DNA of 64,000 bases from Natronococcus amylolyticus DSM 10524. GTDB taxonomy: Archaea; Halobacteriota; Halobacteria; Halobacteriales; Natrialbaceae. Each line of letters begins with the position of its first letter. Position 1 is the stretch's first letter. A model generated the notes under the pieces. It was not told the DNA's origin. It saw nothing but the letters and a program-made list of their open reading frames with translations, and ran no database searches. Position numbers and translations under genes: made by a program. Below are positions 25,234 through 30,074 of this stretch, in pieces. The stretch covers positions 128,580 to 192,579 of the forward strand of contig NZ_AOIB01000026.1 of the NCBI RefSeq assembly GCF_000337675.1. The letters are read 5' to 3'.

Positions 25234-27387
25234 ATGGATCCAAAGCGGGAGCTTACGAGCGTCGATCTCGCGGCCCTCGTCGGGGAGTTCGGTACCTACG
25301 AGGGCGCGAAGGTCGACAAGGCCTACCTCTACGGCGACGACCTTCTGCGGCTCAAGATGCGGGATTTCGACCGCGGTCGCGTCGAGTTGCTGATCGAGGT
25401 CGGCGAGATCAAACGCGCCCACACGGTCGCCCCCGAGCGAGTGCCTGACGCCCCCGGGCGGCCGCCCCAGTTCGCGATGATGCTTCGCAACCGGCTGTCG
25501 GGAGCTGACTTCGTCGGCGTCGAACAGTTCGAGTTCGACCGCATCCTCGAGTTCGTCTTCGACCGCGACGACGGCACGACCCGTATCATCGTCGAGCTGT
25601 TCGGTCAGGGGAACGTTGCGGTCACCGACGGCGAGTACGAGGTGATCGACTGCCTCGAGACCGTTCGGCTGAAATCCAGAACGGTCGTCCCGGGCTCGCG
25701 CTACGAGTTTCCCGACTCGCGGACGAACCCGCTGTCGGTCTCGCGGGAGGCGTTCGACCGCGAGATGGACGATTCGGACACCGACGTCGTCCGGACGCTC
25801 GCCACACAGCTCAACATGGGCGGACTATACGCCGAGGAGGTCTGTACTCGCGCAGGCGTCGAGAAGGCGATGGACATCGAGGACGCCACCGAGGACGACT
25901 ACCGACGCGTCTACGAGGCGATCGAACGGCTCGCACTCGACGTCCGAAACGCGAACTTCGACCCGCGGCTGTACCGGGAGCCGGTCGAGGAGGACGGCGA
26001 GAACGAGGAGTCGGAGTCGCCCGACGACGGCCCGGTCGTCGACGCCACGCCGTTCCCCCTCGAGGAACACGAGGAGGCCGGCCTGGCTGCCGAGAGCGCC
26101 GACAGCTTCCTCGAGGCGCTCGACGACTACTTCTTCGAGCTCGAGCTGGAAGACGAGGAGGAGCCCGATCCGACCGAACAGCGCCCCGACTTCGAGGAGG
26201 AGATCGCCAAACACGAGCGAATCATCGAACAACAGGAGGGCGCGATCGAAGGGTTCGAACAGCAGGCCCAGTCCCAGCGGGAGAACGCCGAGTTGCTGTA
26301 CGCCGAGTACGGGGTCGTCGACGACATCCTCTCGACGGTCCAGGAGGCCCGCGCGCAGGATCGTCCGTGGGATGAGATCGAGGAGCGCTTCGAGGAGGGT
26401 AAAGAGCGCGGAATCGAGGCCGCCGAGGCCGTCGTCGGCGTCGACGGCACCGAGGGGATCGTCACCGTCGAGCTCGACGGGGAGGAGATCGACCTCCTCG
26501 CCCGGCAGGGCGTCGAGCAGAACGCCGATCGGCTCTACACCGAGGCCAAGCGCATCGCGGAGAAAAAGGAGGGCGCGCTGGCGGCCATCGAGGACACCCG
26601 CGAGGACCTCGAGGACGCCAAGCGACGCCGCGACGAGTGGGAGGCAACCGACGAGACAGACGACGACGACGAGGACGAAGCGCAGGAGGAGACGAACTGG
26701 CTCGAGCTGGCCTCGGTCCCGATCCGGGAGAACGAGCCCTGGTACGATCGGTTCCGCTGGTTCCACACCAGCGACGGCTACCTCGTGATCGGCGGGCGAA
26801 ACGCCGACCAGAACGAGGAGCTCGTCAAGAAGTACCTCGAGCCGGGCGATACGGTGCTTCACACCCAGGCCCACGGCGGCCCCGTCACGGTACTGAAGGC
26901 GACCGACCCGAGCGAGGCGTCCTCGTCGGACATCGAGCTGCCCGACTCGAGCATCGAGGAGGCCGCCCAGTTCGCCGTCACCTACTCGTCGGTCTGGAAG
27001 GACGGCCGCTACGCGGGCGACGTCTACGCCGTCGACTCGGATCAGGTCACCAAGACCCCCGAAAGTGGCGAGTACCTCGAGAAGGGTGGCTTTGCGATCC
27101 GCGGGGATCGAACCTACCACCGGGATACGCCCGTCGGCGTGGCGGTCGGCATCCAGTGTGAGCCCTACACCCGCGTGATCGGCGGCCCGCCGTCGGCCAT
27201 CGAGGGTCAGGCCGAGACGACGATCGAACTCGAGCCCGGCCGGTACGCCCAGGCCGACGCGGCAAAACGGATGTACCGGCAGTTCCGCGAGGAGTTCACC
27301 GACGAGTCGTTCGTCCGGAAGATCGCCAGTCCGGACCGCATCCAGCACTTCATGCCGCCGGGCGGGAGCCGAATCGCCGAGGAGTAG
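25234..27387 (+). CDS. rqcH: Ribosome-rescue NFACT protein (Rqc2/NEMF, RqcH family)
   Basis: 717 residues. NFACT proteins bind the large ribosomal subunit carrying a stalled nascent chain and recruit tRNA; in bacteria RqcH adds alanine tails. Seen: NFACT-N starting MDPKRELTSVDLAALVGEF, with PPQFAMMLRNRLSGA (about 80-94); a helix-hairpin-helix-like segment; a long charged coiled coil (about 320-480); then NFACT-R beginning YDRFRWFHTSDGYLVIGGR (about 508-526) with NADQNEELVKKYL. Typical length for archaeal NEMF. No DUF814-only truncation. The acidic insertion around residues 245-320 is typical of haloarchaeal adaptation. Confidence 0.93.
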   Translation: MDPKRELTSVDLAALVGEFGTYEGAKVDKAYLYGDDLLRLKMRDFDRGRVELLIEVGEIKRAHTVAPERVPDAPGRPPQFAMMLRNRLSGADFVGVEQFEFDRILEFVFDRDDGTTRIIVELFGQGNVAVTDGEYEVIDCLETVRLKSRTVVPGSRYEFPDSRTNPLSVSREAFDREMDDSDTDVVRTLATQLNMGGLYAEEVCTRAGVEKAMDIEDATEDDYRRVYEAIERLALDVRNANFDPRLYREPVEEDGENEESESPDDGPVVDATPFPLEEHEEAGLAAESADSFLEALDDYFFELELEDEEEPDPTEQRPDFEEEIAKHERIIEQQEGAIEGFEQQAQSQRENAELLYAEYGVVDDILSTVQEARAQDRPWDEIEERFEEGKERGIEAAEAVVGVDGTEGIVTVELDGEEIDLLARQGVEQNADRLYTEAKRIAEKKEGALAAIEDTREDLEDAKRRRDEWEATDETDDDDEDEAQEETNWLELASVPIRENEPWYDRFRWFHTSDGYLVIGGRNADQNEELVKKYLEPGDTVLHTQAHGGPVTVLKATDPSEASSSDIELPDSSIEEAAQFAVTYSSVWKDGRYAGDVYAVDSDQVTKTPESGEYLEKGGFAIRGDRTYHRDTPVGVAVGIQCEPYTRVIGGPPSAIEGQAETTIELEPGRYAQADAAKRMYRQFREEFTDESFVRKIASPDRIQHFMPPGGSRIAEE

Positions 27388-27474
27388 CAGGCTGCGTCCG
27401 CGAGGGTGCCCTCGTCGCCAACCGCGACCACCCTCGGTCCGTAACGAGCCGACGGGTTATCGTGGCTCGAGCAC

Positions 27475-27496
27475 GTGCCAGAATCGCATCTGGCAC
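27475..27496. promoter_or_regulatory. Perfect 8-bp inverted repeat in the rqcH-reductase spacer
   Basis: GTGCCAGA and TCTGGCAC pair around the 6-nt loop ATCGCA, 88 bp after the rqcH stop and about 100 bp before the reductase start. It may be an operator for the downstream gene or a 3'-end hairpin of rqcH. Confidence 0.35.
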
Positions 27497-27593
27497 CACA
27501 GATCCGACAGAACGAGCGACGTTCGACGGCCCACTGCTGGAGTGTCGCAACCCTAACCTATTCTTCGGCTCTCCTCGATAGCTGGTCCAGAGA

Positions 27594-28837
27594 ATGGTCG
27601 AGTTCGACGTCGTCGTCGCCGGCGCCGGACCCGCGGGGCTCCAGTTCGCACGCGAACTGGGGAAGCGATCGGATCGCTCGGTCGTCGTTCTGGAGCGCAA
27701 CGACGGGCTGGCCGACAACGACAAATCTACGGGCGGGACGTTCCGCCAGGTGATCGAGGGGTACGACATCCCGGATCGAGTCGTGATGGATTCCAGCCCC
27801 GACGTCGTGTTCGAGGGGCTGGAGACCCGCTCACGAGCGACGTCGTGTTCGAGGGGCCGGAGACCCGCTCACGAGTGGCGATTCCGAACTACGTCCTCGA
27901 CTTTCCGGCGTTCCTGGAGTATCTCGGCGAGGACGCACGGGAACACGGAGTCGAGGTCGTCACGGGAACCCGCGTTTCGGAACCGATTACCGAAGAGGGT
28001 GCCGTTACTGGAGTTCGAGCCCGTCGGGGCGGCGATTCGGCGGAATACTACGGAGCGCTGGTGGTCGACGCGACGGGGCCCGCCGGAGCGCTGACGGACG
28101 AGCTGGAGATGTGGGATCCGGACGCGGCACAGCGCGGGATCGGAAAGGAGTACCAGGTGACGGGAACCTTCGACTGCGACTCTATGCTGTTTCGGTTCGA
28201 CCACGAGTACGCCCCTGGAGGCTACGCGTGGGTGTTTCCGGGCGGCGATGGTGTCTTCAAGATTGGCGTCTGCTGGGTGAACGACTTCCACGAACGACAC
28301 GCGCCGCCGGACGGCGGGGGGATCGACGAGTACGTACAGCGGTGGATCGAGAGCGACGACCGGTGGACCGTCGACGGGATCGAGGCGGTCCACGCCGGCG
28401 AAGTCGTCTCGGACAATTCGATCAACGACCGAGCCGACGACGGAATAGTGGCGGTCGGCGACTCCGTTTCGAGCGTCAACCCGCTGTTCGGCGAGGGGAT
28501 TCGGCCGGGGATGGAGTCGGCGGAGATGGCGGCCGACGTCGTAATCGACGCCCTCGCTCGAGGGGACACCTCCAGGGAGACATTGCTCGAGTACGAGAGG
28601 CGCTGGAATCGCGAGAAGGGGCCGAAGTGGAAGATACAGCGGATGGTGGGCGAACTGCTGTACGATTTCGACGCCGACCAGCAGAACCGATTCGTGCGGA
28701 ACGCCGACCGACTGTCGGACGAGCAAGCCGACCGGTTACAACGGTACGAACTCACGCTTCCGGACTTGTTCACCCTCTATCCGTTCGATCCGAAGGATAT
28801 CCCGAAAGTGCCGACGCTCCTCCGCCACCTCCGGTAG
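27594..28837 (+). pseudogene. Geranylgeranyl-reductase-family flavoprotein, frameshifted by a 38-bp tandem duplication
   Basis: FAD-dependent reductase family that saturates isoprenoid chains of archaeal lipids or quinones. Frame 1 (27594-28094) carries the FAD motif VAGAGPAGLQFARELG and reads correctly to ETRSR at about 27836. The protein continues in another frame from VAIPNYVLDFPAF (27876) to 28837, with VVDATGP, GDSVSSVNPLFGEGIRPGM (the second FAD motif) and a C-terminal helical region. Removing either 38-bp copy gives one uninterrupted 401-codon protein of normal family length. As it stands, only truncated products can be made, so pseudogene unless slippage or reversal restores it. It could also be an assembly error. 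Confidence 0.8.
27800..27875 (+). repeat. 38-bp tandem direct duplication
   Basis: Copy 1 is 27800-27837 and copy 2 is 27838-27875, each starting CGACGTCGTGTTCGAGGGG and ending CCCGCTCACGAG. The two differ at one position only (CTGGAG versus CCGGAG). Since 38 is not a multiple of 3, it shifts the reading frame of the reductase gene. Confidence 0.95.
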
Positions 28838-28895
28838 TACTCGAAAGATCGCAGGGACGACGAGAACTCTCGACCGATCAAACCACACCACCCGC

Positions 28896-30074
28896 TCAGA
28901 CGGTTCGATCGATCGCGACGACGTGTGCGTCTTCGGCTTCGAAGCCGACCGCGACGTCCCCGGAGAGGGGATCACGAGTCCTGACGAGCAACTCCTGGCC
29001 GTGCCACTCGAGGTGGACCCGCGTCGTCTCGCCGAGAAACTCCGCGCTCCGGACGGTCGCCGTCGTCGCGTTTCGCTCGCTCGAGCCCGCTTCGTTCGCG
29101 CTGACCTGCAGGTTCTCGGGTCGCACACAGAACGTGACCGCGTCGCCGACCGCGGCCTCGCGAGCGAGGTCGACCGCGAACGTCTCCGGACCGACCTCGA
29201 GTTCGGCTCGCCGACCGCCGTTCGCTCGCTCCTCGAGCGATCGGACGGTTCCCTCGAAAACGTTGTTGTCGCCGACGAACTCCGCGACGAACCGCGTCTC
29301 CGGTCGCCGGTAGATCTCGCGGGGCGGGGCGACCTGTTCCGGCGCGCCAGCCCGCATCACCGCGACGCGATCCGAAATCGCCAGCGCCTCCTCCTGGTCG
29401 TGGGTGACGTAGATCGTCGTGATCCCGAGTTCCTTCTGGATCCCCTTCACCTGAATCCGGAGTCGCTCGCGCAGCTGGGCGTCGAGCGCGCTCATCGGCT
29501 CGTCGAGTAAGAGGACGTCGGGACCGGGTGCCAGCGCGCGAGCGATCGCGACCCGCTGTTGTTGCCCGCCGGAGAGTCGATCGGGCTCCCTGTCCTGCAT
29601 CCCCTCGAGGTCGACCAGCTCGAGCAGCTCTCGGACCCGTTCGTCGTCCGAGACGCCCCCTGGCGGGTCGGCGAAGTTGAGCCCGTAGGCGACGTTCTCG
29701 CCGACGCTCATGTGGGGAAACAGCGCGTAGTTCTGGAAGACGACGCCGACGTCGCGTTCCTCGGGCGGGACCCCCGTGACGTCCTCGCCGTGGAACCGAA
29801 CCGTGCCGTCGGTTGGGGACTCGAAGCCGGCGATCAGCCGAAGCGTCGTCGTCTTTCCACAACCCGAGGGGCCGACCAGCGTGAAGAACTCGCCCTCGCG
29901 GACCGACAGGGAGACGTCGTCGACGGCGGTCGTCTCGGCGTAGCGTTTCGTGACGTCGGCGAGGTCGACGGCGATCGGTCGATCTTCGGTCGGGGACTCC
30001 GCGCTCGAGGACCGGGATCGGGACTCGAGCGACTCGAGCGAGCGATCCGACTCCTCAGATGCCAAAGCTCTCAC
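28896..30074 (-). CDS. thiQ: ABC transporter ATP-binding protein, probable thiamine importer
   Basis: 392 residues. Cytosolic ATPase of a CUT/spermidine-iron-thiamine type importer. Walker A GPSGCGKTT (about 69-77), Q-loop in FQNYALFPHM, signature LSGGQQQR (about 169-176), Walker B VLLLDEP (about 189-195), H-loop in VTHDQEEAL, and a C-terminal TOBE-like regulatory domain (about 275-392). Starts inside the 3' end of the permease gene (20-bp overlap), so cotranscribed with it. A 35-residue Ser/Arg/Glu-rich N-terminal stretch precedes the ATPase domain; a later start is possible. Thiamine is inferred from the binding protein and the thiamine-binding neighbour, not from this subunit. Confidence 0.85.
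   Translation of the reverse strand: MRALASEESDRSLESLESRSRSSSAESPTEDRPIAVDLADVTKRYAETTAVDDVSLSVREGEFFTLVGPSGCGKTTTLRLIAGFESPTDGTVRFHGEDVTGVPPEERDVGVVFQNYALFPHMSVGENVAYGLNFADPPGGVSDDERVRELLELVDLEGMQDREPDRLSGGQQQRVAIARALAPGPDVLLLDEPMSALDAQLRERLRIQVKGIQKELGITTIYVTHDQEEALAISDRVAVMRAGAPEQVAPPREIYRRPETRFVAEFVGDNNVFEGTVRSLEERANGGRRAELEVGPETFAVDLAREAAVGDAVTFCVRPENLQVSANEAGSSERNATTATVRSAEFLGETTRVHLEWHGQELLVRTRDPLSGDVAVGFEAEDAHVVAIDRTV

Follow-up and report, generated by a model that had tools for sequence, protein, structure and literature searches.

Does the short tandem duplication that splits a geranylgeranyl reductase (GGR)-like gene of Natronococcus amylolyticus DSM 10524 represent a real mutation, a reversible genetic switch or an error of the draft assembly? 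The duplication lies within a 64,000-nucleotide stretch of contig NZ_AOIB01000026.1, referred to below as the window. Our analysis indicates that the probable explanation is an ordinary, recent loss-of-function mutation of an accessory FAD-dependent reductase, caused by the 38-bp duplication.

The duplication and the split reading frame

Two adjacent 38-bp copies differing at one base, first described in a sequence-only reading of this locus, were confirmed in the assembled sequence at positions 27800-27875; the copies are identical at 37 of the 38 positions, and the sole mismatch is at the 21st base (Table 1). Tandem Repeats Finder delimited exactly the same interval (period 38, 2.0 copies, 97% match) and assigned it a score of 145, the highest in the whole window. 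Because of this top score, and because complex duplications that contain no N are rare in the 2.46 Mb of host genome surveyed (see below), the repeat is not a chance occurrence. The junction between the copies shows no microhomology, so that the boundaries of the duplication cannot be slid.

Given that 38 leaves a remainder of two upon division by three, the duplication shifts the reading frame by two. The claims that it thereby frameshifts a GGR-like gene, and that removal of one copy restores 401 codons, both hold: the gene is divided between two overlapping frames, and the 1244-base span minus 38 bases makes 402 codons including the stop, in agreement with the length of intact orthologues (395-406 aa). 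The upstream frame includes the start codon and the FAD-binding motif (residues 10-15), exceeds the cut-offs of the Pfam profiles DAO and Thi4, and in tblastn searches is 56-74% identical to intact orthologues.

Table 1. Coordinates of the split gene, the duplication and the surrounding features (window positions)
Feature	Positions	Strand	Remarks
NFACT/NEMF (RqcH-type) gene, left flank	25234-27387	+	conserved, syntenic in congeners
Variable interval between the convergent flank genes	27388-28892	+	holds the split gene; other DNA in each congener
Upstream frame of the split gene	27594-28094	+	166 aa; native to about residue 81, last ~85 aa out of frame to the stop
Potential hairpin	27781-27836	+	stems 27781-27786/27831-27836 and 27792-27800/27815-27823
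Copy 1 of the duplication	27800-27837	+	T at 27820, giving Leu; the altered copy
Copy 2 of the duplication	27838-27875	+	C at 27858, giving the conserved Pro; the original sequence
Downstream frame of the split gene	27845-28837	+	330 aa; possible GTG start at 27845; motif PGGYAWVFP; undegraded
ABC transporter ATPase gene (ABC_tran + TOBE_2), right flank	28896-30074	-	conserved, syntenic in congeners

By shifting the frame by two, the duplication would disrupt an accessory, patchily distributed reductase of the GGR superfamily. The N-terminal piece retains the FAD-binding motif without the catalytic domain, and the catalytic motif is found in the C-terminal frame, which lacks the FAD-binding fold. 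Because the two motifs sit on different pieces, neither piece should be active.

A sparse branch of the GGR superfamily

Profile searches and phylogeny suggest that the split gene is a divergent paralogue within the GGR superfamily rather than the housekeeping lipid reductase. The C-terminal piece passes the Pfam cut-offs for GGR_cat (30.3, cut-off 27) and DAO (33.9, cut-off 27.9), and the profile that the downstream piece resembles best is that of the haloarchaeal digeranylgeranylglycerophospholipid reductase, yet its score is far under the cut-off of that profile. Two intact orthologues score just under the TIGR02032 cut-off (148.6 and 146.6 vs 158.8), and two reach 253 and 280.5 bits with the NF041385 equivalog, for which the cut-off is 700. 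The nearest solved structures are the geranylgeranyl reductases of Thermoplasma (3oz2) and Sulfolobus (3atq).

The superfamily motifs GxGxxG and PxxYxWxFP (catalytic cavity) that are named in a review (PMC10821996) are both present. The first reads GAGPAG in the upstream frame and GGGPAG or GAGPSG in the orthologues; the second reads PGGYAWVFP in the downstream frame, and its P, Y, W, F and P are invariant in an alignment of 13 orthologues. The catalytic Cys47 of the Sulfolobus enzyme is described in the review as shared by every archaeal GGR (PMC10821996); upon alignment to PDB 3oz2, the equivalent position is a Ser, in NDKSTGGTF. This Ser does not separate the branch from the canonical enzymes because the canonical reductases of the host genome and of two congeners read NKST(A/G)GTF at this motif as well. 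Where the review places a universal Cys, haloarchaeal reductases of the superfamily (L013 and the orthologues L034-L056) carry NKST(A/G)GTF.

The split gene shares with the digeranylgeranylglycerophospholipid reductase (NF041385) the superfamily, the fold as judged by profile, NKST(A/G)GTF, PxxYxWxFP and ~36% identity to the host homologue, but intact members of its branch score 253-280 bits against 700, and the branch forms a clade separate from the canonical enzymes (100/100). It appears to represent a separate, uncharacterised branch of the superfamily. An initial scan of the genome contigs with the 330-aa downstream piece gave no match, and the paralogue search proposed by the sequence-only reading yielded no second intact copy in the host genome; the only relative there is the canonical-type homologue, which is retained elsewhere (C3:34340-35251) and is 36% identical. 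Archaeal GGR paralogues (arCOG00570), for example, four in Haloferax volcanii, accompany the housekeeping gene, and saturation of quinones, polyprenols or carotenoids has been suggested as their role (PMC10821996). The split gene resembles these in being an extra GGR-like gene alongside the housekeeping one, but differs in that its branch is sparse among haloarchaea.

Orthologues were detected in 1 of the 124 other family genomes examined and in 22 of 392 sampled members of the order, and are absent from all eight congeners. Named holders include Halomicrobium, Halosimplex, Halomarina, Halosegnis, Haladaptatus, Halobium and a Haloplanus metagenome-assembled genome (MAG). In the tree, the split gene and the orthologue found within its family cluster with one MAG and a Haloplanus MAG, across families, a pattern that fits either transfer or frequent loss. 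A plasmid or phage origin was considered and set aside, no orthologue being found in either the plasmid or the phage collection. No conserved neighbour or operon partner was found in 13 orthologue regions annotated with a crude ORF caller.

The two flanking genes are conserved in all eight congeners (in congener G006, on different contigs), and homology to the congeners ends within a few bases of the two convergent stop codons. The cargo of the interval differs from one congener to the next, examples being a catalase-peroxidase, an FAD/BBE oxidase, a PAS-GAF-BAT-HTH_10 regulator, a GCV_T-like protein and a DUF7344 protein. The interval between the NFACT/RqcH-type and ABC-ATPase genes (27388-28892 in the window, and L100-L108) is a hot spot of gene turnover.

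Direction, age and consequences of the break

The 38-bp stretch is present once in each of the 21 intact orthologues examined. The mismatch falls in a codon for a Pro that is invariant in all 21. Because copy 2 encodes this Pro and copy 1 encodes Leu, copy 2 is the original sequence and copy 1 the altered one.

The suggestion that the event is recent was borne out by the state of the sequence downstream of the break, which is pristine. In the downstream frame, 1 of 111 invariant residues is changed, compared to 0-6 in intact orthologues and to 11 and 12 changed or lost in two broken orthologues; the end branch of the split gene (0.18) is the shortest among the four nearest relatives in the tree; and there is no surplus of lineage-specific changes at its codon positions 1 and 2. 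The two broken orthologues look older and were inactivated independently: that of G299 (L049:1301-2478; 12 residues affected) has a deletion that shifts the frame, lying a few codons before the corresponding place, and that of the MAG G126 (L048:1285-2472; 11 residues affected) carries a TGA nonsense codon. A third MAG copy (L122:3001-4074) shows an in-frame loss of ~42 residues. Such repeated loss points to a dispensable function and, because the canonical homologue is kept in the host genome while relatives repeatedly lose or break the gene, the gene is probably dispensable.

The same comparison bears on the proposal that the repeat is a reversible on/off switch (phase variation), driven by slippage between the copies or by their recombination. 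A near-perfect, out-of-frame tandem repeat within an otherwise intact gene is the structure that such a switch requires, and reversion by slippage between the copies would be possible in principle. In haloarchaea, which are polyploid, gene conversion equalises the genome copies (PMC4056108, PMC8223754), and mixed states could arise in this way. However, none of the intact orthologues examined carries a repeat at the equivalent place, the broken ones bear deletions or a nonsense codon instead, there are only two copies of the repeat, and none of the congeners has the gene. The phase-variation-like control put forward in the sequence-only reading was thus not borne out, and we consider a switch highly improbable. 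Marginally less credible still is its fuller form, in which the switch would act on an accessory isoprenoid reductase, and cells mixing chromosomes with one and two copies would adjust the saturation of lipids or quinones.

It is likewise very doubtful that the two frames are expressed as functional polypeptides, either separate or joined by frameshifting. Each frame is open, with the GTG codon as a possible start of the second, but the downstream piece has no FAD-binding motif, copy 1 is already altered at an invariant residue, and no split orthologue of the same design was seen among the orthologues examined.

The duplication and the base change might conceivably stem from one replication error, a template switch at a small hairpin whose foot lies one base short of the copy junction; a switch copying the other hairpin arm would, speculatively, yield the T in copy 1. 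This T perfects the inner 9-bp stem and is the only one of 114 possible changes to do so (noticed after the fact), and the fold at 27778-27839 has a z of -3.46, with 30% of random sites in the host genome folding equally well or better. In the events described as quasipalindrome-associated template-switch mutation, an inverted repeat becomes perfect, and no duplication of DNA is required (PMC7202029). The present case is similar in that one substitution completes a 9-bp inverted repeat, but differs in that 38 bp are duplicated and in that equally strong hairpins are common in the host genome. Because comparable folds are common and the 1 in 114 was found post hoc, we keep a hairpin-driven origin only as a possibility.

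A real mutation or an assembly error

The main rival to a loss-of-function mutation is an assembly error, whereby two contig ends with a 38-bp overlap, one of them with a read error, would have been abutted unmerged, the real gene being single-copy and intact. The pristine downstream frame and a mismatch that alters an invariant Pro are what such an error would leave behind, and a junction without microhomology is also what an assembly or read error would produce. The draft itself provides grounds for suspicion. It contains 51 exact copies of the Tn5 mosaic-end sequence, which we take to be the Nextera library adapter, whereas seven of the eight congeners contain none; among the drafts with untrimmed adapters, the host (G000) has 51 sites and congener G001 has 44. 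In 2.46 Mb of host genome sampled, 54 N-runs (51 of them a single base) mark joins, and 22 of these have unmerged overlaps of 29-269 bp, that is, false tandem duplications; adapter sequence lies near 22 of the 54. Examples of false duplications joined by one N are L151:17619-17772, L158:567-758, which falls inside a gene, and L164:3044-3223. Hairpins were considered as a cause of the contig breaks and rejected, the N sites showing no hairpin enrichment.

Against an assembly error, an N accompanies every overlap join and interior adapter that was sampled (for the adapters, 25 of 25 have an N within 100 bases), whereas the sequence of the 38-bp site contains no N, and a search of the window that tolerated up to 3 mismatches found no adapter. 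An overlap of 38 bp is also shorter than usual, all but one being at least 62 bp. Finally, 2.46 Mb held only one other complex duplication of at least 30 bp without N, and that one is in frame. Repeats recorded at other loci were L224:5113-5232, where an open frame holds an N-less 60-bp tandem repeat (58/60) that keeps the frame and is another candidate recent duplication, and L137:13365-13404, a perfect 20-bp tandem duplication that is seemingly intergenic.

A duplication without N inside a contig would normally need reads across its junction. Because every sampled unmerged-overlap join bears an N and this site bears none, we favour a real mutation as the likely origin of the duplication over an assembly error, which we regard as unlikely but still deserving of attention. 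The argument of the sequence-only reading that a mismatch between the copies speaks against an artefact is overstated, given a draft full of unmerged overlaps, and is weakened further because the mismatch may itself prevent the merging of an overlap. If real, the split gene resembles other recent pseudogenes produced by short tandem duplication, with adjacent, near-identical, out-of-frame copies and an intact remainder, and none of the features tested distinguishes it from them.

The locus is mainly a cautionary case, showing how a recent frameshift that is real can be told apart from a false tandem duplication when the genome is a draft. Were the switch to prove true, it would be a rare archaeal instance of phase-variable membrane chemistry. 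The comparison of orthologues documents a GGR-like branch of haloarchaea that is uncharacterised and has been lost recurrently.
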